Shown here: piece after piece, positions 10,901-60,490 of the stretch
How the letters are laid out: every line of letters begins with the position of its first letter
Numbering within the stretch: the stretch's first letter is position 1
Assembly (NCBI GenBank): GCA_945910005.1
Contig: OX246745.1
Coordinates: 6,203,591-6,267,590, forward strand
Direction: 5' to 3'
DNA length: 64,000 nucleotides
Source: Isoperla grammatica
Taxonomy: Eukaryota > Arthropoda > Insecta > Plecoptera > Perlodidae
Notes under the pieces: generated by a model
Told to the model about the DNA's origin: nothing
What the model saw: only the letters and a program-made list of their open reading frames with translations
The model's database searches: none
Made by a program: the position numbers and the translations under genes

Positions 10901-13900
10901 TAAGAATGTAATATGACAGCATGAGTGTAGGTATCTGTTTACTTAAGTTGAAGCAGCGTGCACGCAACTGGCGGTTGAGTATAAGAATGTAATATGACAG
11001 CATGAGTGTAGGTATCTGTTTACTTTAGTTGAAACAGCATGCACGCAACTGGCGGTTGAGTATAAGAATGTAATATGACAGCATGAGTGTAGGTATCTGT
11101 TTACTTAAGTTGAAGCAGCGTGCACGCAACTGGCGGTTGAGTATAAAAATGTAATATGTCAGCATGAGTATAGGTATCTGTTTACTTTAGTTGAAACAGC
11201 GTGCACGCAACTGGCGGTCGAGTATAATATATAGCTCATGCTATGACTTACCCCACAGAAGCGACCAGTGTTCTCGTTTGTAGATCATAGTGGGCGTGCG
11301 TGATGTAGTTTGTGTGTAAACAATGATTTTGAAGCGTCATGCACGGAAGACAATGTAATATATTACGGTTTACCAATGCTATGAGTATATTATATATCCA
11401 CAATTTTGCAAATTATTTGACACCCATGAAGCACATGACAATAAAAATTAATTTTACTTCCCGGGTAGCGCAAAATTACAGGCATTGACATCCCTAGTCC
11501 ATACATGGACATATGCCTATGGCTAGGCCTAGGCCTATGCTGTTCGTGGACTTTTGGGATGATCAATTAGACAATTACACAAAAATGGATTCAACCAAAA
11601 GAATGAATTACCCAACATTCAGGCCAATCAATTCAAACGACAAAGTATTTCTAGGTAATGTTGGCAGCAGCTTTTAAATCAGTCGTACCTGTCGCCAATT
11701 GTTTCCAATGACAGCATTCCTCAATTGGGCCCTCAGTAGAAACGCTTGCACAGGAACTATAACGGCACATGGTCCCCCTTCTACTTGGACCAAGGCCGTT
11801 GGTTCATCTTTGCTAAAGTGAAACCCTAAAAACAAACCACATAATTAAGTAGGCCCATCTGGATAATGCTTACTTACGTATATATGCAATGACTCTAAAA
11901 TAAATTAATAATTATTTAAATATAATAACTGGTCGTCTAGCCTAGGTTTTCATGGACAGATCTAGGTAGGCTTAGATGTGTTATTCGGTTTTCGGGATGC
12001 AATCCATGTCCCTTTCTGCTCTTTACATGTGTTCTGCTGTCCCATTTCTCGGTGAAAGCCGAATAACTCAAACAAATACCTAGGTTATATCTAGAAGAGA
12101 TTACTTAGAAATGTGACCAAAAGACTTGATGCATGCTATTACGAGATGTAGGTACGGCAAGCCGGCCAACTGACCTACCAAATATTGTCAATTGGCCAAG
12201 TAGGCCTAATATATGAACGGTCAAATAATTAGTTAACGTGGCATTTTGATAAGAAATTAAATAAACAATAATTTTGTAATGTCAGTTAAGTTTTTGTAAT
12301 GCGCTTTATTTCGTATCACCAACTAAAGTCGAGTTAAATTTAAGAAGTCAAAGAAATCTATGTTTTGTTGGGTAGGCCTAATGGATTTAAATGTGAATTC
12401 TTGTTGGTGAGGGTTGGCCTACATATTTGTTTAGGTTAAGAGTAGGCCTAATGTGTATAGACCTATATGTGTGTCTAGGCCTACTTGTTATTAGGGCTGG
12501 GAGAAAACGTCCAATTTTGTAAACGTTTACTTTTTCGAATTGTTCGCGTTTAAGAGCGATTGGTAGTCTCTACGTAAAAAACCGCAGAAAATGTTCATTA
12601 TTAAATTATTTCTCAAGATTGCAACAAGAAAACAAAAATCTAAATCTGCAGCCCACTGTGCTTTGGTTAGCCCTACACACTGAATAAAATATTATAACCA
12701 TTTGCGTAGTATTTTGATTATAACTCGATAATTAGTAATAAAATTAATTATTTATAAAAGAACATACTGATTATAATATAAGTCACAACTTGGAGCATTC
12801 AGTGTGTAGGGCTTACTAAACCACAGTGCGCTGTTGATTCAAATTTTCGATTTCGAAGCCCATTCTTGTGATATAATTTTAAAATGAAAATGTTGTGCGG
12901 TTTTTGACGTAGAGGTATCCTTCCCTGTTAAACGTAACACCCCTCCTGTTCACAAAATGATGACAAAAAATTATGAAAAAAGGTTCAACGAAATAACAAC
13001 GGTGATTTATTATATTCATTGATGATTATATTCTCCACCTTTTTGTCCAACTGTCCAATGTCACTTTGACTCCATACCCTAAGCTATGCCAGCTCATCGA
13101 AGAGCTGTGACTTCGAAAAAATCTGTAAGTTTGGGTTTGGCTGGGGGTGGCGGGGATTGGTCAGGCATAGATCACGGTTAAACGTGTGAATATTTGTACA
13201 TGTATATTTTCGAGCGGGGGTTGACACGTTTAAACGACTCAGCCCTACTTGTTAAGAGGTTTTACAAGTTTATACCTCATGAGCAGATATCATAAAATAG
13301 TCTTTTCACCATGTTTCCTTTAGGCCTACTTCAGATAACTTACTTCAGTTACATTCCCTTACAAATTTGAAATTGGAGAATTCACTCTTGCCCTTATACT
13401 TTGGTTGCTAGTAAATGGGATCCCATTCACTCATCTTCATCATCACTACATATAATCACCATTGAACAAAATTCATAATAATTATTGATTAAATAAGTTG
13501 CAGACAAATATCTCGTAGGTGTGTCCAGCCACAATATATGAGCAAAAGATGCTGTTTTTATACTTAACCGACTTTTGCTCTGAAATTGATCAACTTGTAC
13601 CGAGATGTCTGGGTAAAACTGGGATAGCAAATTCTTGTTTTTACTTCCTTCTTCAAGAATACTTCCATGAACATTTAACAGTCTTTACAGTGAATAACAA
13701 TATCGAAATATTGAAATGATTTAAGAAGTTAGTAGGCCTACCATTAAAACTTTGATTTAGCCTATAATATATAAATCTGGTCTTGAAAAAGGAAGTAAAA
13801 ACAAGAATTCTCTTTCCGCCCAGATGTAACAGGTTAGATTTGCGCAAAGTGCGGTAGGCCCTAGGCCTATGTTTCAATATTCGTTATTATTGGTTGTGTT

Positions 13901-15654: not shown

Positions 15655-17310
15655 ATTAATATAAGGCTTGCAGTTAGCAATATGGAAAATTGCATTAACA
15701 TATAGAAAGCAATTTAATGCAACAAATATGCTTCCAATTATTTAATCAATTCATAAGTTATTTGTCTCCGATTAACACACCAAATTATATAATCCACCAC
15801 TGAAATTTTAGTACAGAGGCCATAACATTCCAGGCCATCACCATCGTCCCCCCAGTGGCCCTCCCCCCCAAATAGTATTTACTACTATAGACAATCGCTA
15901 TGCATTCCAAACCGTGTTCAATTGTCAGATATATTATATTATATTATATTTGTATAGGTATACTGTAAAGGTAGGGCCTATACTGTAATAGGAACTAAAA
16001 TCCCAATTCTAGTAATCTAACCGACCACGTTCTGATGACATAACGAAGGACGCAACGAACATTTCACGATACTCCTTCAGTTGGTTCAATTCATTCACTG
16101 TTAGCCTGCATCAAGCGCTCGCAGGCCTTCCCGTGTCTTACGTTTGCAACAATCGCCTTCGAGATTTGGCAATATTATCCATTGAATAATCAGTCGTAAA
16201 AGACATCAATTTGCATCAAGTCCTGCGGTTTGATGCTGAGCACCAGAACGAGCATAAGAATATATTTTCTTCCAGTTTAGTAGAGTAGAGTAGAGTTGAG
16301 TAGAGTAGCTTTGTTCACCATTATAAATTGTACATTTATCTGTGTTCCGTCATTTCTGGGTATAAACAAATATTAACAGGTACTATATTTACATTTAAAA
16401 TACAACAGATACAATGAGGAAAAAACATACTACTACATATATGTATATATAACTGTATAACAACCGCTGCGATTTTATCTGAAACTCAAGCAAGGGTTCA
16501 CGATGCCGCGGTGGGGGGGGGGGGGGGGGGGGGGGTATTTTACGAGTCCAGATTGCGATAGCGTTTGCGCCCCCAACTGGCATACTCGCCCCTGAACTGC
16601 CTCCTCTAATGTAACCTCCTAGCGTCGCCGATTTCCAAAGTAAAATTATAAATAATTACTTACAGTACGAAGTCACTGATTATTCTTTGTTATTTTGTGC
16701 ATAGTACCTACTTTTGATATTTAAACCATTGTATTCATTCTAATTCAGTATGTTAAACAATGATAATATAATTTTATTTCTTATGTGTCTATTAAACAGA
16801 AACGTACCCATTCGTTTAAATACATTGTTAAATAGCTATTATTCGCTTGTTTTGGGCTGGTATTTTCTTTTTTGTAATTCTTCGTATGGTTTTTACTAAC
16901 AGTGATCTTGGTGACATTGCCAGCTCGTTTCTCTTAGCTTTGAATCAAGAATGGTTCGCCATTTTCTTTTTAAATGGGCGTTAGCAAGTCCCTCTTCAAG
17001 GCGGGTCTCACACACCCATATATGTATACCGCATTCTATCGTAGAAAATATGTATTAAGGAGGATGATTTCCGATAGAGTGCGTTAGACTTGCTTAGTCG
17101 TAGACAAGCTCGATTCCACTCCGCAGTGCCTTCATAGGTAAGTTGAAACAGCGGCGTTGGTACCGGGGGGGAGGGGGGGGGGGGGGGGTAGAGCGCAGAG
17201 AGGTAGCTTGGCTGTCTGGCCTTGCATGGGGGGTCAAGAGTATCATCCCATGGTAGCTTCAGATGTATTTATTTCATTTAGGCTAGCCCATTATTAGGGT
17301 TGTGCCAGTA
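15655..17310. other. No recognised gene; simple repeats and a poly-G run
   Basis: The stretch holds TATATT and TAGAG short repeats (15940, 16280), a 23-base G run at 16513-16535 and an interrupted G run at 17165-17188. I see no exon with matching splice signals. Confidence 0.5.
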
Positions 17311-18958
17311 GATAAACATACCTGCGTGACATACCACAGATTTTGAGATAATTACGTAACTTTCAGGGGCTGTCTGTCTGTCATTCAAAAACTACGTAAT
17401 GTCATAAAAGGTATCGATTTGTAAGAGAACCTGAGTATAATCACTTTACTTGATTCCTGCTAATTAATCTCAAATACATCTACTTTTAGCGTATATAAAC
17501 ATACCTGGGTGACATATCACCGATTTTGAGATACTTACGTAAGATTCAGGGGCTGTCTGTCTGTCATTCGAAAATAACGTTATGTAACACAAAGTATCGA
17601 CTTGTAAGATAACCTGAGTATAATCACTTAACTTGGTACCTTTTATTTAATCTCAATTACATCTATTTTCAGCGTATATAAACATACCTGCGAAACACAC
17701 TACAGATTTTGAGATAATTACATAAATTTCAGGGGCTGTTGTCTGTCATTAAAAAATTACGTTATGTCACACAAGGTATCGATTTGTAAGAGAACCTGAA
17801 CCTGACTATATTTCTTAACTTGATTCCTTTTAATTAATCTCAATTACATTTTCTTTCAGCATATATAAACATACCTGCGTGACATACCACAAATTTTGAG
17901 ATAGTTACGTAAGAACAGAAAATTACGTAATGTAAAAAATTACGTAATGTCACACAAGGTATCGATTTGTAAGAGAGCCTGAACCTGATTATATTCACTT
18001 AATAACTTGATTCCTTTTAATTAATCTCAAATACATCTACTTCTAGCGTATATAAACATACTTGCGTGACATACTACAGATTTTAAGATAATTACGTAAG
18101 ATTCAGGGGCTGTCTGTCTGTCATTCGTAAATTACGTAATGTTACTTAAGGTATCGATTTGTAAGAGAACCTGAGTAAAATCACAAACATGATTCCTTCT
18201 CATTTTTCTCTATAACATTTACTTTCAGCGTATATACACATACCTGCGTGAAATACCACAGATTTTGAGATAATTACGTAACTTTCAGGGGCTGTCTGTC
18301 TGTCATTCAAAAATTACGTAATGTCATACAAGGTATCGATTTGTAAGAGAGTCTGAGTGTAATCACTTTACTTGATTCCTGCTAATTAATCTCAAATACA
18401 TCTACTTTTAGCGTATGTAAACATACCTGGGTGACATATCACCGATTTTGAGATACTTACGTAAGATTCAGGGGCTGTCTGTCTGTCATTCGAAAATAAC
18501 GTTATGTCACACAAGGTATCGACTTGTAAGATAACCTGAGTATAACCACTTAACTTGGTACCTTTTATTTAATCTCAATTACATCTTTTTTCAGCGTATA
18601 TAAACATACCTGCGGAACATACTACAGATTTTGAGATAATTACATAACTTTCAGGGGCTGTCTGTCTGTCATTAAAAAATTACGTAATGTCATACAAAGT
18701 ATCGATTTGTAAGAGAACCTGAGTATAATCACTTAACTTGATTCCTTCTTATTAGTCTCAATTACATCTTATTTTAGCGTATATAAACATACCTGCGTGA
18801 CATACCACCGATTTTGAAATACTTACGAAAGATTCAGGGGCTGTCTGTATGTCATTCAAAAATAACGTAATGTCACACAAGGTATCGATTTGTAGGAGAA
18901 CCTGAGTATATGCACAACTTGATTCCTTCTAATTAATCTCAAATACATCTACTTTCAG
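17311..18958. repeat. About 183-bp satellite, 9 copies
   Basis: Each unit contains GCGTATATAAACATACCTGC, TTTTGAGATAATTACGTAA, CAGGGGCTGTCTGTCTGTCA and GGTATCGATTTGTAAGAGA. Copies diverge by roughly a tenth of positions by eye, and one has lost part of the middle (17900-17940). Confidence 0.92.
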
Positions 18959-19494
18959 CCGGGATGCGATCGCATCCCGGGCCCCTGGGCAAATTCGGGC
19001 CCCCGGGCTGCCACCAAAAAGTTCCTATGATGTAAATACTTCTCTGTATATGCTAAAAAAATCTTAACCCCACCCTACAAGTGTTATTTTTAAATACCGC
19101 GCGCCGGGTGTCCGCGACTTGGTGACTAAGGGCCCCCCGTCGCCCAGGAAACCTTGTCAAATCCGTTCGCACGCTAGCATTTTGCGAGTGACAATATTCA
19201 GCACTTGTCAGTAACTCAAGTAACACAAGGCCATAGCCTTACCTCGAGTATCGTTTTCTTCAAATTTGAATAACGCGCCCGGTAGTGCTACTGGTGGGGT
19301 GGCCTCTGTTAATCGCGCCCTAAAATCGCATTCTAGGCCATAAAATTCAATGCAACCCAAAAAAATGTTTACGCCTTTGGCGTATTTGCCTCCAGCGGCT
19401 GGGGCTTCGCCCCAGACCCCAGCTGCGCCACGCCCCTTCGTGCGGGCCCCCCGAAACCAAGAATCCCGGGCCTTTTTATCCCAGTCCGCCCCTG
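18959..19494. mobile_element. Probable hAT-like element with CAGGGGCGGACTGGG end
   Basis: The right end, read on the minus strand, is CAGGGGCGGACTGGGATAAA, typical of animal hAT elements. The left side begins with a perfect 22-bp palindrome at 18959-18980 centred on GCGATCGC. No matching target duplication was found, so the left boundary is uncertain. Confidence 0.45.
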
Positions 19495-22164: not shown

Positions 22165-23088
22165 GGTGACGTAGTATGAGCGTCGGTAGCGTCGGTTTGC
22201 ACAGGTCGTGGTGAGGCGACGCCAACTTCAGGTAACCATTAGTAGATTTTTTTGAGTTTTTATTTTTTTACGGGTAAACAGTTTGAGATAGAATTTTTTG
22301 GTTGTCAGTTCCTTCTTATTAATTTCTATCTTGATATGATTCGTATTTTTAAAAAAATAAAAAAAAATAAAAATTTCATTATTCTCCGATTCTGCCTTTC
22401 TGTGAGGTTTTTTGAAATTTTAGGCGCCTGTATCTCTGTTAGTATGACTCCCACCATATTTTCGTTTTCAGGATGTCTAGATAATCAACGCAAAAAAAAT
22501 AAAAAAAATACAGAAACAAATTTGGGCCACACGTTTTTTTGCTACGAGCACTTTAAAAAAAAATTTCCTCCATGTAATCCCTTCTCAACTTTTCTTGTCT
22601 GAATATGCAAGAAAAAAGGACTGCCGGTTGCGGGTATCGAAACCCGGACCGCGATAACACTAGTCGGAGTCGCTACTGCCTACGCCACGCCACAGGATGG
22701 AAGTTGGCTTCCTTACAATAGTACATAACACACCGCTCTCAATGAATGCATGTATGTATCTCGATTCATTCTTTTTGTAATTGTTACACCTAAGATAGAT
22801 AAATTTACGAACAGAGGGTCTCATTGGATTAAAAAAATATCCAAGAATACGATCTGAAGATAAAAACTCCGAAAATTGTGAAAAAAACGGCTTCAAGATT
22901 TTTTTTTATCATCAGATCGTATTGATTGATTGGTTGATCGCGAAAGAACTAATTGTTTATGGACACAATGAGCCATGTGACACTTAAAAAATAAACTACG
23001 TCCATGCACGTTGATGCATTGATATAAATGCGTGAAAATGGTGGTACAAAAAAGAGTGGGTGTAACGGGTCTCGAACCCCAGACCTCG
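22165..23088. repeat. Duplicated 0.93-kb block, copy A
   Basis: The block begins GGTGACGTAGTATGAGCGTC and ends in a minus-strand tRNA-like head whose B box is GGGTTCGAGACC. A second tRNA-like stretch lies at 22620-22695 (B box GGTTTCGATACC on minus). The block is nearly identical to 23813-24755. It contains no convincing coding sequence. Confidence 0.85.
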
Positions 23089-23812: not shown

Positions 23813-24755
23813 GGTGACGTAGTATGTGCGTCGGTAGCGTCGGTTTGCACAGGTCGTGGTGAGGCGACGCCAACTTCAGGTAACCAAAATAGTAGATTTT
23901 TTGAGGTTTTTATTTTTTTACGGGTAAACGGTTTGAGATAGAATTTTTTGGTTGTCAATTCCTTCTTATTTTTTGCTCTCTTGATATGATTCGTATTTTT
24001 TAAAAAATAAAAAAAAATAAAAATTTCATTATTCTCCGATTCTGCCTTTCTGTGAGGTTTTTTGAAATTTTAGGCGCCTGTATCTCTGTTAGTATGACTC
24101 CCACCATATTTTCGTTTTCAGGATGTCTAGATAATCAACGCAAAAAAAATAAAAAAAATACAGAAACAAATTTGGGCCACACGTTTTTTTGCTACGAGCA
24201 CTTTAAAAAAAAATTTCCTCCATGTAAACCCTTCTCAACTTTTCTTGTCTTAATATGGAAGAAAAAAAGACTGCCGGTTGCGGGTATCGAACCCCGGACC
24301 GCGAAAACACTAGTCGGCGTCTCTACTGCCCACGCCACGCCACAGGATGGAAGTTGGCTCCCTTACAATAGTACATAACACACCGCTTTCAATGAATGCA
24401 TGTATGTATCTCGATTCATTCTTATTGTAATTGTTACACCTAAGATAGATAAATTTACGAACAGAGGGTCTCACTGGATTAAAAAAATATCCAAGAATAC
24501 GATCTGAAGATAAAAACTCCGAAAATTGTGAAAAAAACGGCTTCAAGGTTTTTTTAAATTTTCGGAGTTTTTATCATCAGATCGTATTGATTGATTGGTT
24601 GATCGCGAAAGAATTAATTGTTTGTGGACACAATGTGCCGTTTGACACTTGAAAAATAAACCGTGTCCATGCACGTTGATGCATTGATATAAATGCGTGA
24701 AAATGGTGGTACAAAAAAGAGTGGGTGTAACGGGTCTCGAACCCCAGACCTCGAT
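23813..24755. repeat. Duplicated 0.93-kb block, copy B
   Basis: This copy matches the block at 22165 almost base for base. It keeps an extra AAATTTTCGGAGTTTTT that completes an inverted repeat (GATAAAAACTCCGAAAATT ... AATTTTCGGAGTTTTTATC, 24509-24575), which copy A has lost. Confidence 0.85.
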
Positions 24756-25731: not shown

Positions 25732-25890
25732 TCCCCTCATAGTTAATATATTATTATAATTATTTCATTGTATTATTTCATATTTCTTTATATCTATTCA
25801 TAATGTATTTTAGTTCCTCATAATTAATATATTATTATAATTATTTCATTGTATTAATTCATATTTCTTTATATCTATTCATAATGTATT
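25732..25890. repeat. Two-copy direct repeat of about 80 bp
   Basis: The stretch TTCCTCATAATTAATATATT through TATTCATAATGTATTTT occurs twice in tandem. A tail ending TAAATAAATACTATTAAATAAA follows at 26050, resembling the 3' end of a non-LTR element. Confidence 0.8.
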
Positions 25891-26111
25891 TTGTATCAGT
25901 GGTGTGTTACAAATAGTTTGTACCTATTTTGTATTTTGTACTTTATAATTGTACTTAATGGTTTGTAATTTTTGTTTGTATTTACATGTGTAACTAACTG
26001 TACGGCTGAAGAGAGCCTCCGCACAGACGGTGGCTCTGCAATAGCCCATACATTAAATAAATACTATTAAATAAACTACATCCATAAGATTCTAAATATG
26101 TAAGTTTCACA

Positions 26112-27114
26112 TAGCACTTCTATGTATATCTGCAATACAGTGCAAGGCATCTACTAGTGCTTACTACACCGATACAGGAGGCTCAGCGGTATAATACAGG
26201 TGTGTAGCACTTCTATGTATATCTGCAATACAGTGCAAGACATCTGCTAGTGCTTACTACACCGATAGAGGAGGCTCAGCGGTATAATACAGGTGTGTAG
26301 CACTTCTATGTATATCTGCAATACAGTGCAAGACATCTGCTAGTGCTTACTACACCGATAGAGGAGGCTCAGCGGTATAATACAGGTGTGTAGCACTTCT
26401 ATGTATATCTGCAATACAGTGCAAGATATCTGCTAGTGCTTACTACACCGATATAGGAGGCTTAGCGGTAAAATACAGGTGTGTAGCACTTCTATGTATA
26501 TCTGCAATACAGTGCAAGACATCTGCTAGTGCTTACTACACCGATAGAGGGGGCTCAGCGGTATAATACAGGTGTGTAGCACTTCTATGTATATCTGCAA
26601 TACAGTGCAAGGCATCTGCTAGTGCTTACTACACCGACAGAGGAGGCTCAGCGGTATAATACAGGTGTGTGGCACTTCTATGTATATCTGCTATACAGTG
26701 CAAGGCATCTGCTAGTGCTTACTACACCGATAGAGGAGGCTTAGCGGTATAATACAGGTGTGTGGCACTTCTATGTATATCTGCAATACAGTGCAAGGCA
26801 TCTGCTAGTGCTTACTACACCGATAGAGGAGGCTCAGCGGTATAATACAGGTGTGTGGCACTTCTATGTATATCTGCAATACAGTGCAAGGCATCTGCTA
26901 GTGCTTACTACACCGATAGAGGAAGCTCAGCGGTATAATACAGGTGTGTAGCACTTCTATGTATATCTGCAATACAGTGCAAGGCATCTGCTAGTGCTTA
27001 CTACACCGATATAGGTGGCTCAGCGGTATAATACAGGTGTGTGGCACTTCTATGTATATCTGCAATACAGTGCAAGGCATCTGCTAGTGCTTACTACACC
27101 GATAGAGCAGGCTA
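26112..27114 (+). repeat. 93-bp satellite, 11 copies, built from a SINE head
   Basis: Units start TAGCACTTCTATGTATATCT at 26112, 26205, 26298 and so on every 93 bp to 27042. Each contains GAGGCTCAGCGGTATAATAC, an A-box-like tRNA head. The last unit runs directly into a SINE body at 27115. Confidence 0.93.
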
Positions 27115-29285: not shown

Positions 29286-29919
29286 CTTTGCCCTTAAGGC
29301 TATCATTTTCAACTGTTACCAATTATTGCCATCTCCTGGCCAATTAAGATATAGCATGTGAACAACTCTTTTTCATGGCAGTCTACTTGTGTAATTACAT
29401 ATTATAAAGTTGCCCTCCAGACCCATCCCGTAATTATAGTCTATTCATGTATTATTGTACTAGACCTGATGTTTGAAACAAACAACTCGTGCATCTTAGT
29501 GCGTGAATTCGCGCGAATTAAGCGAAAAGAAAACTTCATATGAGCTGGAATTGAATTTGACATTCAGACAATGCACACTGATTGTATTTACTTTTAAATA
29601 GCAGTCTCAGTTATCTAGTTTGGAAATATTTTATTCTATAATCGTAAAACATATCTAAACATATCTAGAACCAAACTATTGAATTGAAACTATTGAACTA
29701 TTGAATATATACACTATTGTCAAGGTTGTTCCCTATTTCCCGATAGTACAATATTATAGTTTAAGCAAATGTATTTTATTTTGAGTATTTTCAAAATACA
29801 AATGCATTTTGTATAGAAGCTACAAGGCGAAAAAAAAATCTTGTATTTTGTACCTATAATATATTTACTTGGGTATTTTGTAATAAAAATAAAAACATTT
29901 GAGTATTTTACCCAGCTCT

Positions 29920-30033
29920 GGTGACCGTCAAGCTCCTTCACGATCTCCTGCTGGTGCTCGGGCGAGATAGATTCCAGCGCCTTCTGGATCACGCGGCAGC
30001 CGTACATCTGCAGCGCTGGGGGCAGGACGTGGC
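29920..30033 (-). pseudogene. Pumilio-repeat exon fragment
   Basis: After the acceptor-like TATTATACAG, 38 codons match a Puf repeat ([20 protein letters not shown], then EIVKELDGH). Homology stops abruptly at LDGH. The next bases, CAGAGCTGGGTAAAATACTC, look like the end of an inserted transposon. The following Puf repeats are absent. Confidence 0.7.
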
Positions 30034-30476
30034 CTGTATAATAATAACAACACATAATATGTTTTTGCAACAGATCTAATTTTTCAAATCATTTTAGATG
30101 AGGGAGTGGGTGGGGATTTAACATATTTTGGATTTGTTTTAAAACTTTATTTTGGAACAACAAATTTTCTGATTTTTGCTCAAGTTATTTAAACATGGGT
30201 GACCTCAAATTATAACACATCTATAATTTTAAGTTATTATTGGATAATATTTACTGGAAATTGGATTTGTAATAAAATCCTAATTTGAAATCAAACCCCA
30301 ATTGTTTCATTTTATGTGGAAAATAATTTTTTTTGCATTTTTCTTGACTTGTTTTACTTTGGAAACTTCAAATTTGTACGCTTGGGATTATGAAATGGCC
30401 AAGATGTTTTTAAAATTTCCTACTCTTATGTTCTTTTTACACTTTCCAATTCCCAATAAAAAACACTTCGATTTAT

Positions 30477-31529: not shown

Positions 31530-31705
31530 CTAAAAACTGCTCTAACGGTGGTGGGAATTGAGGCAGCGATCTCTTGAAATAGAGTACTGGGTGCTACCGC
31601 TGAGCAACCCCTATCAGTAGTAGGAACACGCGCGTGCCTGCGATCTCTTGACATAGAGTACTGGGTGCTACCGCTGAGCAACCCCTATCAGTAGTAGGAA
31701 CACGC
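31530..31705 (-). mobile_element. tRNA-like SINE head, partly duplicated
   Basis: On the minus strand GGGGTTGCTCAGCGGTAGCA (A box) occurs twice, 75 bp apart. Only the second is followed by a B-box-like CCTCAATTCCCACC. The duplicated unit is nearly identical. Confidence 0.65.
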
Positions 31706-33428
31706 GCGTGCCTGTGAGCACAAATATCGATCGAATTAAGAACTTGATAGTATATTTGGATTCGAAATGTACCAACGATTACAACCTGATGAAAACAATT
31801 TTCAAAACCAGCCAACAATATTTTGTCAGTTTTGATTGTGTCATAAATTTCATAAATTTTGAAAACCGAATGCCCCCCAAATTGGCTGATAACGTGACAA
31901 ACGATAGACCACATCCAGAAGATGCTTAACAAATGATTTTTACATAGTATTGTTTTGGTATGCCTGGGATTCATGGTTAGCCGATGAACCATGTTTTTGT
32001 GTTGAGCCAAGTGCAACACATATAAAACACAAAACATTGAGCTTGATATAAGATTGTAGTTTGTGTATCACATTCATATGATGGATATAATTCATATCCA
32101 ATCACTACAAATAAAACAGCATACTCGAGGTCTGGGGTTCGAGACCCATCTTCCCCTACGTTGTTTTAAGGGCCAGGAAAACACGGTATATATTTTTTGG
32201 GTGATTTTTTATTTTTATCAATAGATCGTAATTTTGGGTATATTTTGCATCGAAATTTATCATGCGTTTCAAAATCCGTCGATATTATGAGTTAAATCAC
32301 AAAATAATGAATCGAGTTGAATGTATTGAAGTGGTCCCAGCCCTATATTATCAACATAATATGAGAGGAGAGGAGGAGTTGGAGAGGTTTGTTTCAGGAG
32401 TTAAAGACACAAATAAAGACCCACACAATATTATAACACAATACAATAATTTTTTTTTTTTTTTCAAATTTTGCCCATCTTTATTGCAGCTCATGGACAC
32501 GGCCTTCTGGAATCTAGCCTCGATGGACGGATGTCCGGTCTACGTTGTCACGTGATTGGAAAATGATTTCCGACAACAACCACGGACCGGTTATAAAAAT
32601 GGCAGCTGAGTTTGTTTTTGTGTACTGTGAACCCTATACCGGTGGTTCCCGACTTTTCTTTTACTCAAAGCACCCCAAGCCTACAGTCAGTAGACATGCG
32701 GCACCCCCCCCCCCCCCCCCCCCCCCTCAATCCACAGTTCAACTAACGCCCATGACAAAAACCAATAATTTTTAAAATATATAAGTAATAAATCAACATT
32801 TTGCAAATTTTGTATTACTGTACCACCACTTACTTATAGTTAGTCAAAATAATCGCAATCGTTTCCATCTAAATATTTAATTTTTTTAAACGGCGACTAA
32901 CGAGAACAAAATTATGTGTATGCAATATGCATGCATTTCAAATAGCCGGCTGCTGATGGTCCCGGAACGCCCATCTACGACAAAAGCGTCTATAAGGTTG
33001 CCATGCCACCACTTTATAACTTCAACTAGTCATTATTCTGTAAGTAATGAAATGCTTTTATTTTTCATGGATTATGGTATCAACATTAACCCAACCAAAC
33101 TTGATAAGAGACACAACACACAAATCACTGTTTTTAAACAATCTTCTTTTGTGTTTCACTACCAGTAACATCATCAATTAACATATCACACACTACGGTA
33201 ATATGTATATCATTGGTATTTAAGAGAATGTACCACATTACATGTATCCTGATTTATAATCCACTATACACAGCTTCTCGCTTGTACATATTTCTTACTT
33301 AGATTTTACACTTTCTACATGAGCTTTTTAGAAATCAAAAACAAGTACTAATTTGGATTCAATTACTCAATTAGATCTGATATACATTAAAAATTTTGAA
33401 TGTCAATGGGATTTCAATGTATAGTTGT
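31706..33428. other. No recognised gene; poly-C run
   Basis: The stretch holds a 23-base C run at 32704-32726 next to a hAT-like GGTGGTTCCCGACTTTTC. A minus-strand AATAAA near 33057 may serve TACO1. A stretch after TTTATTGCAG at 32488 reads LMDTAFWNLAS for 21 codons, but I could not assign it. Confidence 0.4.
32110..32160 (+). mobile_element. SINE head fragment
   Basis: TCGAGGTCTGGGGTTCGAGA matches the minus-strand tRNA-like end of the duplicated blocks at 23050-23088. Confidence 0.5.
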
Positions 33429-33752: not shown

Positions 33753-33953
33753 TTAAGCTATGTTGTCATAGAGTTTAACGACGTCGGGGTTTTCTTGCAA
33801 CTTATCACAGAGTTGAGCAACAGATTCTAATTCGGAATCGTTTAGTTTGACTAGTGTGTGCGGTATGAATTCTTGGTCAACCACTTTTATTGAATAGTTC
33901 AGCTTCTCCAGCTTGGCTTTTACTTGATGCACTATTTCAGTTGCACACAGGAA
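33753..33953 (-). CDS. TACO1: TACO1 exon 4 (terminal)
   Basis: The acceptor is TTTGTTGCAG|TTCCTG. The exon encodes residues 211-276, including [22 protein letters not shown] and [12 protein letters not shown], ending in TAA. Confidence 0.93.
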   Translation of the reverse strand, partial: FLCATEIVHQVKAKLEKLNYSIKVVDQEFIPHTLVKLNDSELESVAQLCDKLQENPDVVKLYDNIA

Positions 33954-36900
33954 CTGCAACAAACAACAGATATTCAATATCGCTATAGCTATGCTATCCT
34001 TCATTGCTATTTTAGTGCTGACTGCTGACATTCATGGTTCAATGAAATTTGTCATTGGATATTAAAAATGTACACAAATACACTTCCATGATATAGTAAA
34101 AGCCCTCACCACAACTGTTGGCATCGTAATCAGAATAGGGATCACAATTGTACATTTTTCCAATACAAAAATTACGGCATTACGATTTAGTAGATGTGCC
34201 ATAGAGACAGTGCCATAAGAACTACGTAAGTTAACTCTTTCACGGTTTCTGGATTGCAATTGCAACCCCGATACCGACAATTGTTGTGGGTTGGGCTTTA
34301 CACGTATAGGAGCTGGACAGTAAAACTGCTATCCAGTCAAAACCAACAATAAATGTAGTGCTATTGCAGATCTGAAATGTATGAAGAATATTCAACAGTG
34401 ATACTATAAGTATGCATCCTCACACTTAAATGATACATTTTTTTCAGTACCATAAAGTAGGCCTACCTAGAGTAACCATAGAAATCCATAAATCATTGTC
34501 CACCATTTTAAAATCAGCAATGCATTGCTACAATAGAAACGACAGCAAGGCAATAGCATTAGCAATACAACATTGCTATTTAAAACTAGAAATGCACACA
34601 TCAATTGGTATTATAGCTTGATACTAGACAATGACAAAAAATTGATAATGAATGAGAAAAATGCCTAGCCTATTTGTGTTTTTAAAATTTTATTCATTGG
34701 AGTTTCAAATCCTAGATTCCATGCCAACCTACAATCACAGATCATCCACAAGGTAATGCTGTTCCATGGTAAGTGGGTTCAGGCGAGACTGAGGAGAGGC
34801 TTAGTTAAGTAGAGGTCTGGAAGATGCATTTGGCTCTAAGAATATTTCCAGGGCTATATTTTGCAATCAAAAATGTATTTTAGCTACCGGTAAGGTTATT
34901 TTGCGATAAAAGAGACAAGTCACTGTTGACCGGACACGCAAAAATAACTCATGTTCTCTCTTCAAGATAAACAATACGTTTCCAAAATTGTGTTCAGTAA
35001 ACCACCCGTGCTTCAAAGACAAAGAGCATAGTCAGGCCTCAGGGGTATTGGACTGCCCACCCCCAGCCCTCGTCCTGAAGTGACAGTACTTGGCAACAAT
35101 ATCTGCAGCCAAAGGGATAGAGGAGAAGCGTAGCACAAAGAGGGTAGAATATTAGAATACATACTTTTAGTAACACAAGAAAAAATATTAAAATACTAGG
35201 CCTACTCCTCACCATTACCAATTTTTCTCGCCAATGGCGAGTTGGCGAGTGGAATTGGCAAGAGTTGTGGATACTCACTCGAAATAATATCTTGCCTTCT
35301 TCGTGGGTTAGCTCAATGACATCCTCTGCTCCAGCCTCGATGGCGTGCTCGATTGCTACCTCGCAAGTTAAGCTGTTGGGGCTGCTAGGTGCCGCTTCAA
35401 TCACTCCTTTCAGGTCAAACAAGTTCCGACTACCGCCTTCAGAATACGTGGCACTGAAACATTTAAACAAATCTAAACTGAAATGTAAGCTTCAATGTGG
35501 AGTTTCCCAAGGGCTGGATGCCCCCCTCCCCCCCCCCCCCCCCCCCCCCCCCCGGGATGATACTAGAAAAGGACACCAAACAATATCTCTAATAAACAAG
35601 AGTAGGCCTACAGTCACCTCAAAGTAAATTCTTATTCCCTTACTTATTTTTTCTTAAGATGGTTGATATAAGCTGTCTTGTTTTAGCAAAGTTTTCAGTC
35701 AAAATATCTGCAATTATGACACAGTTTCCAGGCCCTCTGAATTCCAATACAGCAGGTTTTGATGCTTCCTTTGATGTCTGGGACGACTTAATAATGCTTT
35801 GAATGGTACTTGACGGCATGCTGCTTCGTTTAGCTTGTTCAATCAATTGAGCAAGCTGGACGTTATAGGAAGGGTCATGGCTGCCCCCCTCTGAAATCAT
35901 ACATACAGACTTATTTAAGTACAACAGTATAAACAAGATGAAAGGAAAATGGGTTAAATTAATTAATCTTAGTATGTAGGCCTATCTCAAAGTAGGCTAA
36001 TTGATTAGGCCTATTGTATTCTGAAGATGGTGGATGGGTTTAAAGGTAGACTAGCAGTAAAAATCAAATTTACATGTAGGCTATGATATATAAGATACAG
36101 TAAGACAACCCTAAAAATGTCTACTCGCTAGCTCACAACTTGCAAGTGACTTTTGATAGGTTGCCAGTAAACTTAGTTATCTGAAAGTACCATTGCATTA
36201 TTACATTACATATCAATGCAATATTGACTCTCGTCTTAGATTTTGATTGTTTTTATGACAAGATATCGCCTCAAAATGCGTTTTAGACCATAAACATAAT
36301 GCAGGGCCAAAATTTTGTTTCGCCTTTTTTGGCACGGACGACACCAGCTACATCACGCACCTACGTTGCGAGTACAAATTACACGACGCTAGTGGACAAC
36401 TAGTTGATTTGTGGAGGGTTGCAGTAAAAAACAATCCGTAGTCGCTCGAATCAATATTTCCCCAAATACAAGTTTAAGAGCTGCTGTGCACTTTCTAGGA
36501 TAAAGACCTAACCACAATAATTGTCAGCATCGTGATCGTAAACGTTATCCGAAAATCGTGAAAGAGTTAACCAACTTTGTTGGTTCTTATGGCGCTGATC
36601 CAACATAATGCCTTAATGACGCAATTTCGCGACTGTAATAGGAATGCGTTCATAATTCTACGATTGCGATCACGATGCCAACAATTGTGGTTAGGATTAA
36701 AGAGTTAAGTATAGGGCATAGGGATGTTTTAGATTTACCAGCCTCTCAAATTATTATCACTTATTGTAGGGCCTAATGACCTCGAAAAGTGAGTGCTAGG
36801 AGCTTCTGAATGCCCTAGAACTAGAGCGCAGCTACAACTACAAAGAAAAATCCCAATACATTAGTCAATACTTGCCTCGTATAGCAACTCTCATCAGTCT

Positions 36901-42900: not shown

Positions 42901-42988
42901 AAATACTCCCTCGACGTTGTTAGACGAAACATTTACACATTCTTACTTTATTTAAAGCCCAACGTTGTTTGATTTTCTCGGTGGAAAT

Positions 42989-43158
42989 TCAAGCGTAGAA
43001 TTCACGGTTTGAGTTTTTCGTGTAAGAATTGACAGTTGGCGATCGCTTGGGCTCGTCCAACGCATACGAGCCTTCGTCTTTCTTGCGCATCCGATAGACG
43101 ATGAACATGACGACGAGGATCGCACATAGGAGGCCGACCACTGCACCACCGATCACCG
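42989..43158 (-). CDS. SDC: Syndecan transmembrane/cytoplasmic exon (canonical acceptor)
   Basis: Starting from the acceptor nearest the stop (GTCTGTTGCAG|CGGTG), the exon gives the normal ILA|AVIGG junction, one membrane helix and the tail ending EFYA. Identical acceptors occur at exon starts 43242, 43326, 43410 and 43494. All are in frame, so this exon could extend to 43494. Confidence 0.9.
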
Positions 43159-44548
43159 CTGCAACAGACAACACACTCGTCACAAGAATCAACATTACGA
43201 GGATCGCACATAGGAGGCCGACCACTGCACCACCGATCACCGCTGCAACAGACAACACACTCGTCACAAGAATCAACATTACGAGGATCACACATAGGAG
43301 GCCGACCACTGCACCACCGATCACCGCTGCAACAGACAACACACTCGTCACAAGAATCAACATTACGAGGATCGCACATAGGAGGCCGACCACTGCACCA
43401 CCGATCACCGCTGCAACAGACAACACAGTCGTCACAAGAATCAACATTACGAGGATCGCACATAGGAGGCCGACCACTGCACCACCGATCACCGCTGCAA
43501 CAGACAACACACTTGTCACAAGAATCAACATGACAAGGATCGCATCTATCTATCTATCCATCTTTTTCATCCAATACTAGACTATTTCTCATGCTGGTAA
43601 TGTTTCCAATTTAATTTAAATTAGGGAGGAAAAATTTTATCAATTCTCCGATTACTATTTTTAGATCCCTGGATCTCTAGGTATAGGATATGGCAATAAC
43701 TTAATAACTTATAAGATTATGTACACTACAAGATTATTAATCAATATTCACATCCGGATAGACGCAAGAGGCAACCGATCTTTTAACTGGGATACAACTG
43801 ACCTCACACGTAACCACACATGCATCCGAGACAAGACGTACCTGCTAATATGCCGGGCTGCGCAAAGAAAGAAGTGGTTCTGATATCCCCCTCCTTTGCG
43901 CTCATTATCACGCCAGTGTCGGCCGGTCGTTTACCGACGTCTGGTGGGTTGGGAGTTGGCTGAGTACCGGGCTGGTCCACCACTATCGGAGTATCTACGT
44001 TGTTCTGCTGGAACAAGGACATAATTGCCTCGAGTTTGTGCGTAACAAGATAGCAACAATACTTTATCTTGTAACACAGATCTTACTATATCACTGACAC
44101 TTTTAGAAACTTGTACTTACATGAAATACAAAACCCCAACAGATGATAGCATACTGCATGCATCATTTGATAATGATGATGATGATGATGATGATACAAG
44201 GGAAAGTTTGCCCGAGAATGACGGTATTTACCCGAATAGAAGAATACTTCAAATTTAAGACGACCCCCTATTTCCAAGAATTTAAAACTGGAAAAAATCA
44301 TATTCATAGGCCTAATCTTAATATGCGAATTTAAGACGACCCCCGATATTTCAACTATACAAAATGGAAATAATTATAGTCTTAGATCAGATGTATAGTG
44401 TAGGTAGCAGGGGTTCCACTACAGAAAATTGAGACTAAAATTAGTTGCTATTAAAGTCTCCTAATATCAAAAGAAATCACCTAATACTCTACCTGAATAC
44501 CCAGGTCACAAAAAGCCACACCAGTAGAAATAAAATGCTTTGGAGCTT

Positions 44549-44943: not shown

Positions 44944-47900
44944 CCATTCTTAGTTTCAATCCATCAATGATACACATTAATACATTAACATACATATTAA
45001 TACATCTCTCGTTCGTGAAAGCCTTCACAATTGTGTGTATATATATATGTACGTATACGTTGCACGTTTTCTGGTCAACTGCCGCTCTCCTTTGTCTCTC
45101 TTCGTCCTTTTTTTTTGAAAGAATACAAAACGGTCCTTTTAAAAACAAAAATTGTCTCAAGAAAGAGCACGGCAGTCAACCCGAAAACGTGCAACATATA
45201 CATCCATCGGTCTGCGAAAACCTACAACTCAAAATATATATAGGCATATATTCATAGACAGATATAGGCTAGCATTAATGATAGCCTAGGTACTATAAAC
45301 ATATGGAAAGTAAAAAATGAGATATCTACACTTTCTGGGTTGTTATGCTCCACCCACTTCTAACAGTTGAATGTGCCGTAACCTCCCTAAAAGTGTTTAA
45401 TTGAATTTTAAGAATTATTACCTTAATGACTTCTTTGACCGGCTTCTCTGTTGGCTTCAAGCTGGGTGCTGAAAGAATACAAGAACACAGGTATTAGTGT
45501 ATTGAAGACTAGACTCAATGAACAGGACAGAGAAGGAGGCAGCCTTATATTGGATAGCAAGAAAGAAGAATGGTTGAAGAGGCCAACTCTGCACAGGGGA
45601 AAAAAAGGATTTCTCTTGTGACATGAAGGGCTTGTTCCTCAGAAATAACCCCTACTACACCAGCAATTCATGACAATTGTTACCAATAGAGGTGGCTCAG
45701 CCGTAAGAAGCGTAACTCTAATTCAGGAGGTCGCCGGTTCGATTCTGGCCACCTGACCGAAGGTTTTTTCTGAAGTTTTCCTTCTTCGTAAAGGCGAATG
45801 CTGGGATTCTCCTACTAACAGCCGTCTGACATTCCTTCTCAACTATCCAAACACCCTTATATACCTAGTAAGTCACCTGAAGAGGGGCACATCAGGTAAA
45901 GTGATGTGTACCCTATAATAATAATCCTATGACAAATTAAATTATTAATATTATTTTGGTTATGTGTGATTCTGTTTGTAGTCAGGGCAGAGGTCAAAAC
46001 AACAGCAACAGTGATTTATACTTTTATTTAGACCTATAACGAAAACAATTCACCCCCACAATTCAGAGTTTGAAAGGTTAAAATGCTCTAAGCGTTAGTT
46101 TTAGAAAACAATAAACAGTATGAAAAAATTTAAAAACTGCTTTTGTGGTTGGCGCAAAATAACATAACTTGAAGAGGTCAGTATCTTGTTTGTTGAAAAT
46201 TACAGATAGCAAAAAGATTAGCAATCGAGATCAGAAGCATCATTTCCTATGTTTGTCCTGTGTTGTGCTTCTTGTTTGTTGTAAATTACAGATAGCAAAA
46301 AGATTAGGGATCGAGATCAGAAGCATCATTTCCTGTGTTTGTCCTGTGTTGGGCTTCCTGTTTTCGATCGGACAATCATATTATTCAGTTTTCTTGACAA
46401 TGTAAACATGTTTGTACAGTTATCAAGCAGTAGCAGTTATCTATCTAGACTAGAGCTAGTTTAACAGGCACTACTTTTCTTTTGAGTTATTACCTGGTAC
46501 CTATTTACCATTTCCAATGAGGCCTATATAGGCCTACACATTACACAATCCTTGGAATATCTAAAGAATTAAGCCTTTAATTATATTGCTTCTAAGTATG
46601 TTAAGTATAGCTAACTATATGAACTATGACTATATGAATAAAATCATTGTAACCTGCTAACTCATAAAATACAAACATGTAGCCTATACAAGTTGGCTGA
46701 AAAGATTTGTTACTGAGAATTATGTGATGCTAAGAAACAGATTAGACACATAGCACATATAATGTAAATATGTAGGGAATAGGGACGGCGACTCTCCTGT
46801 TTTTCAAAATTTGGTACTCTAAAGCTAAAAACTAGGTAGTTTAAAACTGTTTGCCCTGATTTTTTAAATGATTTAAAGATTAAATTAACCATTCTTTTGG
46901 TAGTGTGTGAAAGAGTGCAAACAATATTTATACTATGATGACGATGGTAATGGATGGGAATAAGTGCAATACAGTAGTATGGTAACAAGTACTTACATGA
47001 GCTGCACAATACTACCTAATAAGAAGTATGTACATACTTACTAAGTTTACATCTATACTTAACATATGAATGCACATGCTTACTTACAATTTCATGGACC
47101 AGACAATTTTTACAACTCCAAATTAAAGGGGGATATAAATAATTAATTAGAGGTGTGTGAATAGGTTTTTTTTAAATAAAAAAAAACAAATAGTACACAC
47201 TCAAAAATCAAAGTCGAATATTTCCCACAATAATGCTGCACACAACTAATTAATAGCCTACATATTATTGGTTTTCAACATTTATTGGCCGATTGCAGTA
47301 AACTGCAAATTGGGGGCAAACATGATGTTTGAAACCGATTCAAAACAAATGCTTCGTAAATTATCGAATACTTTGAAAATTCGAATAGTTACTATTCGAG
47401 TTTCGAATCGAATACGAATAGTAAATTATTCGCTAATACTTCGTAAATTTCGAATATTTGCACACCTTTAATATAAATTCTAAATACTGTACTACTACTA
47501 CACTACAACTACTACTACGACTGAATAGGCCCTACTTGTATTATTTTGCGGCTTACGTCGTGTTCCATGGCTCCCGTAACTTCTCCTATAGGGTGTATAC
47601 CTACATTACTTGCTCAAAATAGGCTAAGACAAGTACACGCTGGCTAATGAGCATGCACCAATGCTTTTATGCACATGAGGAATGTTACCACTAGCAGCAC
47701 CACAGCACCCAGGTAGGCCTAACCAGCTTTCATACCCTCAATTACTGTGGCAAGCCTACATGGTAAATAAAAGTGTATATGTCAAAACAAACTAGCACTG
47801 GAAAAACAGAAGCAAAGAAATAATAACAATTGACTTTAGGTTTTTATTTAAAAAGTAAAAACTATTTTTAATGTGAACTTAGTCACACTATAAAGACTGG

Positions 47901-48560
47901 GGTGAACTGACTTTTTTTTTTTAGTAATATCTTGAGAATGCTACACAATGTTAAAAAAGTGATAAATGCCCAAATTGTGGTTTGGTTTTGTAAGCACCAG
48001 AAAACTGGATTAAAAATGTTTCAAAACTCTGTATCGTTACCGGGTAATTAGTAATTAATTGCAATAATTTTACATAAATTTACCAATTTAGCAATTGTAA
48101 TGATTAATATATTTGTAATGTTTGTAACTTAGTTTTTAGATAAATTACAGAACCACAATTCGGGCATTTTCACTTCTTTAATATTGTGTAGCGAGACTAC
48201 ACTTTGACGTTAAATACAAAAGAAAATAAACTAATTAAACGTGAAAGTGTGACAGCCCACAAACAATAGCACCCGTAAGGCAAACATCACCTGCGTTTGG
48301 TTTTGCCTCGATCATCCCTCGGCTATTTGTATAAAATGTAGACAACAGTTCGTGCCTAGTAATAACTCACTGGCTGTCAAACCTGAGCCACCATCGCCGT
48401 CCTCATCGTCATCATCCGTGGTGGGGCCAAAACCGGAGCCGGAAGACTCTTCTAGGTCATCCTTCACTTCCCTGTGGCCTTGACCTGAACCCTCCAACTC
48501 CTCGTCGTCGATGTAGATATCATCCTTCGAGGACTGCCAGAAGGACAGAGAGCTGCCAGT
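42989..48560 (-). CDS. SDC: Syndecan (heparan sulfate proteoglycan), 5' exon missing
   Basis: Syndecans are single-pass cell-surface proteoglycans that carry heparan sulfate. Four exons (48371-48560, 45422-45468, 43842-44007, 42989-43158) join in matching phases (0-1, 1-0, 0-1, 1-stop) to 573 nt, 190 aa with no start codon. The first has acidic Ser-Gly sites (ELEGSGQG, EESSGSGFG, DGGSGL) for glycosaminoglycan attachment. The middle two encode a Pro/Thr-rich stalk. The last gives AVIGGAVVGLLCAILVVMF (membrane helix with a GxxxG-type motif), the C1 region YRMRKKDEGSYALDEPKRSP, a variable region, and the PDZ-binding C terminus EFYA. The signal-peptide exon was not found between 48561 and 64000. 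A minus-strand AATAAA lies at 42947-42952, 37 nt after the stop, with others near 42667. The acceptor of the last exon is part of a five-copy 84-bp array, described separately. Confidence 0.93.
43113..43544 (-). repeat. 84-bp tandem array spanning a syndecan 3' splice site, 5 copies
   Basis: Five full copies begin at 43113, 43197, 43281, 43365 and 43449, followed by a 12-nt partial copy at 43533. Read on the minus strand, each unit is 38 nt of intron end (pyrimidine-rich, ending TGTCTGTTGCAG) plus the first 46 nt of the transmembrane exon. The unit is divisible by three and has no stop in the syndecan frame. It encodes 28 residues (AVIGGAVVGLLCAILV then MLILVTSVLSVA). Only a few substitutions separate the copies. 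Confidence 0.95.
43842..44007 (-). CDS. SDC: Syndecan juxtamembrane exon
   Basis: The acceptor is TTGTTCCAG|CAGAAC and the donor TTAGCAG|GTACG, phase 1. It encodes a Pro-rich linker and ends in FFAQPGILA, directly before the membrane helix, the usual syndecan layout. Confidence 0.9.
44550..44942. repeat. Three (AT)n tracts with paired flanks
   Basis: AT runs lie at about 44550-44581, 44651-44682 and 44911-44940. The first two enclose GGTGTGAGAGG and CCCTCTCACACA, so the region can form a long AT-stem hairpin. AGGTAAGCTGTyGkCyyC also occurs twice. Confidence 0.85.
45422..45468 (-). CDS. SDC: Syndecan 47-nt stalk exon
   Basis: The acceptor is ATTCTTTCAG|CACCC and the donor ATTAAG|GTAATA. It encodes PSLKPTEKPVKEVIK and restores phase 1 to 0 between its neighbours. 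Confidence 0.85.
45690..45930 (+). mobile_element. tRNA-derived SINE, family 2, complete
   Basis: The head GGTGGCTCAGCCGTAAGAAG and B box CGGTTCGATTC precede GGCGAATGCTGGGATTCTCC and CACCTGAAGAGGGGCACATC. The element lies in the syndecan intron upstream of the juxtamembrane exon. Confidence 0.8.
47150..47471. mobile_element. TIR element with GAATCGAATA sequence
   Basis: The ends AGGTGTGTGAATAG and AATATTTGCACACCTT are inverted, and the interior is rich in TTCGAATCGAATACG. It lies in a syndecan intron. Confidence 0.6.
47930..48202. mobile_element. MITE with long inverted ends
   Basis: GAGAATGCTACACAATGTTA and AAATGCCCAAATTGTGGTTT are mirrored by CCACAATTCGGGCATTTTCA and TAATATTGTGTAGCGAGAC. 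It is related to 901-1181 and lies in the syndecan intron. Confidence 0.7.
48371..48560 (-). CDS. SDC: Syndecan ectodomain exon with Ser-Gly attachment sites
   Basis: The acceptor is CTGTTTAG|ACTGGC and the donor GCCA|GTGAGT. The exon is very acidic (YIDDEELEGSGQG, DDDDEDGDGGSG), as expected around xylosylated serines. It begins in phase 0, so the missing 5' exon should end in phase 0. Confidence 0.9.
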
Positions 48561-60214: not shown

Positions 60215-60490
60215 TGTCTCGGAGCTGTCGGCACAGCACAGATGTCTTTCAATATGTATTTGTCTGACGTCAGTCACTTCTCGGAGCTGTCGGCACAGCA
60301 CCTATGTCTTTCAATATGTATTTCTCTACCAAATACATATGTCTTTCAATATGTATTTGTCTGACGTCAGTCACTACTCGGAGCTGTCGGCACAGCACAT
60401 ATGTCTTTCAATATGTATTTGTCTACCAAATACACATTGAAAGACGTGTGCTGTGCCGACAGCTCCGATCGAGTAGTGACTGACGTCCCT
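60215..60490. repeat. Direct and inverted repeats with a 60-bp-arm hairpin
   Basis: CTCGGAGCTGTCGGCACAGC with ATGTCTTTCAATATGTATTT occurs three times in direct orientation. A complementary copy from 60425 folds back on the third, giving a long cruciform around TACCAAATACA. Confidence 0.85.

Follow-up and report, generated by a model that had tools for sequence, protein, structure and literature searches.

NAGNAG and similar tandem acceptors provide in-frame alternative 3' splice sites that lie a few nucleotides apart, and test substrates with duplicated beta-globin 3' splice sites reportedly stem from work by Reed and Maniatis in 1986. In-vitro substrates in which the human beta-globin 3' splice site was duplicated, with 14, 55 or 205 nt of exon following the proximal copy, were spliced very inefficiently and at the distal copy alone (PMC5389562). 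A stronger substrate with two sites was also spliced poorly, with roughly half of its molecules having both sites occupied simultaneously; competitor RNA reduced the double occupancy and raised splicing several-fold (PMC5389562). The length of the proximal exon is also reported there to matter for site choice, so the distal-only rule is not universal (PMC5389562). The closest published natural case found in the open-access literature is the potato RdRp gene PGSC0003DMG402000361, in which one tandem duplication across an intron/exon boundary led to a new intron, proven by RNA-seq (PMC4974935). Epstein-Barr virus internal repeat 1 carries spliced W1/W2 exons in its repeat units, with a variable number of exon pairs in the transcripts (PMC5834210).

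The locus described here lies in a window of 64,000 nt (the whole stretch of DNA that was analysed), in which an 84-bp tandem array straddles an intron/exon boundary of a syndecan gene and presents five acceptors to a single donor. Like NAGNAG sites these acceptors are neighbouring and in frame, however they lie 84 nt apart and are copies of one another. The beta-globin substrates share with the array identical acceptors in tandem, the first being followed by a stretch of the exon that also follows the second (14, 55 or 205 nt there, 46 nt here), however they were engineered, held two sites and were spliced in nuclear extract, whereas the syndecan array holds five sites in a natural gene. In potato RdRp the duplicated segment likewise takes in the 3' end of an intron and the beginning of the exon that follows, the copy inherits the branch site, polypyrimidine tract and CAG (with the branch points of syndecan being predicted), and differences between the copies serve as evidence for a genuine duplication. 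The potato gene gained one extra copy, a new donor and a new intron, whereas the syndecan array has four extra copies of a unit that keeps the frame, and its donor-like GTAATG, the sole one examined, leads to a stop. Internal repeat 1 repeats whole exons of a virus with a promoter in each unit, whereas the syndecan array repeats the acceptor side only, and the viral unit is much longer than 84 bp. A single boundary-crossing duplication is already known from potato RdRp; searches of the open-access literature found no account of a transmembrane exon with a many-copy (five-step) array that repeats the acceptor alone and keeps the frame.

The syndecan gene and its boundary array

By its sequence the gene is an arthropod-type syndecan, with the splice product from acceptor 43158 matching Pfam PF01034 (E 1.9e-30, 105.1 bits against a cut-off of 25.2), and the closest solved chain to that product being 6ith_A, named Syndecan-2 (E 2.2e-6). 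Relatives were drawn from two protein searches run with a length limit, which gave 644 and 976 matches at E 0.001. Together the top 120 from either search comprise 176 distinct proteins, with long forms being possible among the proteins beyond these. All 176 listed relatives carry the syndecan Pfam domain, and all are from arthropods where the organism is named.

A putative ectodomain exon with an acidic, Ser-Gly (glycosaminoglycan-type) segment, DDIYIDDEELEGSGQGHREVKDDLEESSGSGFGP, was located at 48371..48560 (minus strand) by tblastn of the relatives (best 71% identity, E 5.2e-18). Its splice ends, placed by eye, read TTTAG/ACTGG and CAGCCA/GTGAGT (slashes marking the junctions), and its Ser-Gly motifs EGSGQGH and SSGSGFGP (~48560-48371) are candidate glycosaminoglycan attachment sites. 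A putative juxtamembrane exon at 43842..44007 (minus strand) ends in ...SFFAQPGILA(G), with SFFAQPGILA exact in 150 of the 176 listed relatives, as is the sequence from GILA to RMRKK, and the juxtamembrane EGDIRTTSFF present in none of the 176. The putative acceptor of this exon at 44007 (minus strand), by eye TTCCAG/CAG, forms a NAGNAG, TTCCAGCAG, which could add or drop one Gln. The donor GT at 43840..43841 (minus strand; GCAG/GTACGT) is in phase 1 and can be joined by all five acceptors. The standard terminal coding exon, AVIGGAVVGLLCAILVVMFIVYRMRKKDEGSYALDEPKRSPTVNSYTKNSNREFYA followed by a stop, occupies 42989..43158 (minus strand) and is assigned by the PF01034 match, with the first AATAAA 3' of the stop codon at 42947..42952 (minus strand). 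All five splice products end in ...NSNREFYA and a stop, with EFYA being the C-terminal PDZ-binding end of syndecan, and the 34-residue tail is identical in 7 of the 176 listed relatives (from Timema, Schistocerca, Anabrus, Ischnura, Hetaerina (two), and Gryllus).

The recognised syndecan exons, including the terminal exon with its tail and the Ser-Gly exon, are free of damage. No signal-peptide exon was found among the tblastn places listed for the relatives. None of the joins tried between the two ectodomain exons (four donors with three acceptors) gave an open frame, so at least one further syndecan exon probably exists beyond those recognised. Elsewhere in the window, pieces of a TACO1/YebC-like gene lie at 33753-35981 (minus strand; Pfam PF20772 and PF01709), with a mayfly protein of 46% identity being the sole match at E 1e-20 or better among the 239 candidates scored, and a Pumilio-repeat piece (29720-30088, minus strand; Pfam PF00806, E 4e-11) lies downstream of this gene on the same strand. 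The taxa with the identical syndecan tail and the mayfly match make it likely that the window comes from a non-holometabolous insect or a near relative. Searches of the 64,000-nt window gave no Rfam match at the gathering threshold, and no tRNA or tmRNA with ARAGORN under the bacterial code.

The initial annotation had proposed five copies of exactly 84 bp, each fusing 38 nt of intron end to 46 nt of exon start and each presenting the same acceptor, and this is borne out by both TRF and a phased alignment. TRF places the array at 43113-43544 (minus strand) with a period of 84, 5.1 copies, 97% matches and 0% indels, and phasing on the acceptors gives head-to-tail units that are all exactly 84 bp long. 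On the minus strand these are unit 1 (43449..43532, exon start 43494), unit 2 (43365..43448, exon start 43410), unit 3 (43281..43364, exon start 43326, with one A-to-V change in its exon part), unit 4 (43197..43280, exon start 43242), and unit 5 (43113..43196, exon start 43158), the last of which gives the standard syndecan transmembrane segment as judged by the span length of the relatives. From -17 to +36 around the acceptor all five units share one sequence, and the whole alignment holds four variable columns, with units 4 and 5 identical, units 1, 2, and 3 differing from them at 2, 1, and 1 positions respectively, and four distinct unit sequences in all. Pairwise differences of only 0-3 per 84 bp agree with the earlier suggestion of a young array. 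Elsewhere in the 64,000-nt window no ungapped alignment to the unit exceeds 39/84, which puts the array far beyond chance. The tract before each array CAG is moderately rich in pyrimidines (9 or 10 of 17), with that of unit 2 being slightly better, and a further CAG, also in frame, lies 18 nt into the exon part of every unit.

Two of the three minus-strand frames of the 84-bp unit are free of stops, with the syndecan frame being one of these, and in this frame the unit encodes 28 uncharged residues, AVIGGAVVGLLCAILVMLILVTSVLSVA or a one-residue variant. The further claims that the unit lacks stops, that the donor at 43842 could be joined to any of the five exon starts, and that the EFYA tail stays in frame from every acceptor also hold at the level of sequence, with all five splice products being open.

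Choice among the five acceptors

We consider it reasonably probable that the array is a young boundary minisatellite from which the working mRNA is made mainly at 43158, with the four upstream acceptors acting as decoys with a minor in-frame leak. In this account, whose duplication route, branch points, last-acceptor choice, decoy effect and tolerance we infer, each unit would carry a complete 3' splice signal (the branch-point-like TTGAT and TGTGAC, a U/G-rich tract, and CAG), and all five acceptors should thus be recognisable. Acceptor 43158 would make the working mRNA, as the sole one to give the standard transmembrane length and the one closest to where the cytoplasmic tail begins with purine-rich sequence, and the upstream four would compete as decoys and lower splicing efficiency. 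A minority leak would yield in-frame mRNAs with 28, 56, 84 or 112 extra hydrophobic residues; such a leak would not truncate the protein, and the array could persist, because the unit length and frame allow it.

Depending on the acceptor, the hydrophobic span is longer by 0, 28, 56, 84 or 112 residues. In all 176 listed relatives 27 residues separate the last D, E, K, R, H, N or Q from RMRK, and this uncharged span is kept by the 43158 product and not by the other four, with the extra-segment probes LILVTSV and VMLILV also absent from all 176. The last acceptor is expected because of this constant membrane span and by analogy with beta-globin, with more weight resting on the conserved length than on the analogy. 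The purine-rich GCAAGAAAGACGAAGG at 43071..43086 (minus strand) is a candidate exonic enhancer lying ~73 nt past the last acceptor and 409 nt past the first, with the purine maximum reaching 11/12 in the tail versus 8/12 in the unit. A point against the choice of the last acceptor is that the acceptor cores are identical, with nothing in the acceptor itself favouring 43158.

The same identity of the cores, together with one phase and the lack of stops, speaks for an alternative in which all five acceptors are used appreciably to give graded syndecans with a hydrophobic segment 0 to 112 residues longer. By hydropathy scales each uncharged 28-residue unit contains a 19-residue window of strong hydrophobicity, the units being separated by weak barriers, and could span the membrane by itself. 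This ladder is nonetheless doubtful, and unlikely as the main set of alternative acceptors, given the 27-residue span of all 176 listed relatives and the published two-site beta-globin substrates, which were spliced to the distal site only. A single-sequence AlphaFold model of the entire open frame consists of long featureless helices (mean pLDDT 75.7, pTM 0.29), and says nothing for or against acceptor choice.

The reading frame of the array bears on the same alternative. A unit length divisible by three is expected by chance in one case out of three. Amongst mononucleotide shuffles of the intron tail 54% are without a stop, and 7.4% are without a stop and without charged or strongly polar residues. 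For CAG sites beyond the array, 500/819 are open and 17/819 are open and uncharged where the tract holds at least 9 pyrimidines of 17, with 324/498 and 15/498 respectively at a threshold of at least 10 of 17. By these figures the open, uncharged intron tail of the array is moderately unusual, being open and uncharged beyond what chance would be expected to give, and leans mildly towards a ladder in use. Selection for such a tail was considered and is suggestive at most at these frequencies, with chances of 2 to 7% being no strong evidence of selection and T-rich intron ends tending to read hydrophobic.

That the first acceptor, 43494, dominates as the one nearest the donor and transcribed first seems improbable. 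Its product would contain a 139-residue uncharged stretch, or the gene copy would be dying. Proximity and first-AG rules favour the upstream 3' splice site, and the upstream flank of 43494 is the original intron, unlike that of the other four acceptors, however its use would extend a membrane span whose length is the same throughout the 176 listed relatives, the choice in the beta-globin substrates is distal, and the terminal exon, tail, and Ser-Gly exon are undamaged. Expansion of a single genomic copy by mis-assembly is more improbable still: units 1, 2, and 3 are each distinct from the others, the 432 bp fit well inside one long read, other arrays with imperfect copies occur in the same window, and short-read assemblers tend to collapse tandem arrays, not to expand them.

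We give little credence to a length dial, by which the choice of acceptor would set the number of times that syndecan crosses the membrane. If each 28-residue unit crossed once, 43158, 43326, and 43494 (1, 3, and 5 crossings) would keep the tail intracellular, and 43242 and 43410 (2 and 4 crossings) would put it outside. The side of the tail would depend on the parity of the crossings, so use should favour every second acceptor if the dial were true, and variation in unit number between individuals would then alter the set of topologies.

New introns inside the array, running from the donor-like CTC/GTAATG of units 1-4 to a later acceptor and leaving 44-nt microexons, are scarcely credible, since despite the precedent of potato RdRp, where a donor was recruited beside a duplicated intron/exon boundary, and the presence of GTAATG at all four unit junctions and its absence from the last exon, the donor matches the consensus poorly, the 44-nt shift reads CGG TGA and so terminates two codons beyond the junction, and just 40 nt separate the donor from the next acceptor. 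If the intron is retained, the 13th codon after GILA is a stop, and splicing to the second CAG gives a span six residues shorter, in frame; of the retention, microexon, and second-CAG routes none looks productive, except possibly the last.

Origin and significance of the array

The array would have formed as a young minisatellite across the last intron/exon boundary of the arthropod-type syndecan gene. The first duplication possibly proceeded via two nearly identical 12-nt ends (TGCGATCCTYGT) at a spacing of 84 bp, one intronic and one exonic, with the intronic TGCGATCCTTGT before the array (43533..43544, minus strand) being 11/12 identical to the exonic TGCGATCCTCGT at 43124-43113. A duplication between these ends, as a possible microhomology, would give a unit of exactly 84 bp, and unequal exchange or slippage between whole units would then have led to five copies. 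Aligned to the exon, the intronic sequence preceding the array scores 25, which is reached by 1/5000 mononucleotide shuffles and 7/5056 other 50-mers of the window, and the microhomology at the array ends is not clearly beyond chance. The idea that the intron tail is a relic of an older exon duplication was considered and rejected, as the score is equalled by those other 50-mers and microhomology is to be expected where a duplication ends.

TRF found nine tandem arrays in the window whose units measure at least 28 bp, covering 5584 of its 64,000 bases (8.7%), which points to a high mutational supply. Young tandem duplications seem to arise often in this genome, and the array is as such ordinary, with the unusual part being its site in a very conserved exon and its keeping of the frame. 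The long minisatellites lie at 9470-11227 (81 bp x 21.6), 17308-18959 (183 bp x 9.0), and 26112-27113 (93 bp x 10.8). The four arrays with at least five copies of units longer than 28 bp (a 44-bp TRF row being taken as part of the first long minisatellite) all have unit lengths divisible by three, which is probably a coincidence. Five duplications of roughly two copies, with 93-100% matches, lie at 25735-25892 (81 bp), 31566-31714 (74 bp), 46184-46363 (86 bp), 60238-60434 (97 bp), and 2871-2926 (28 bp). Two near-identical stretches of 247 bp on the plus strand (22354-22600 and 24004-24250), which align without gaps, lie 1650 bp apart and are both open in one frame, are probably copies of a repeat.

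With five acceptors that share one core sequence, follow each other every 84 nt and are served by one donor in front of one exon, the locus amounts to a natural experiment on how the spliceosome chooses among equal 3' splice sites, position being almost the sole variable. The array further shows a minisatellite absorbing the edge of an exon in a very conserved gene with the frame unbroken, and it offers a direct test of the tolerance of a single-pass receptor for a multiplied transmembrane segment.
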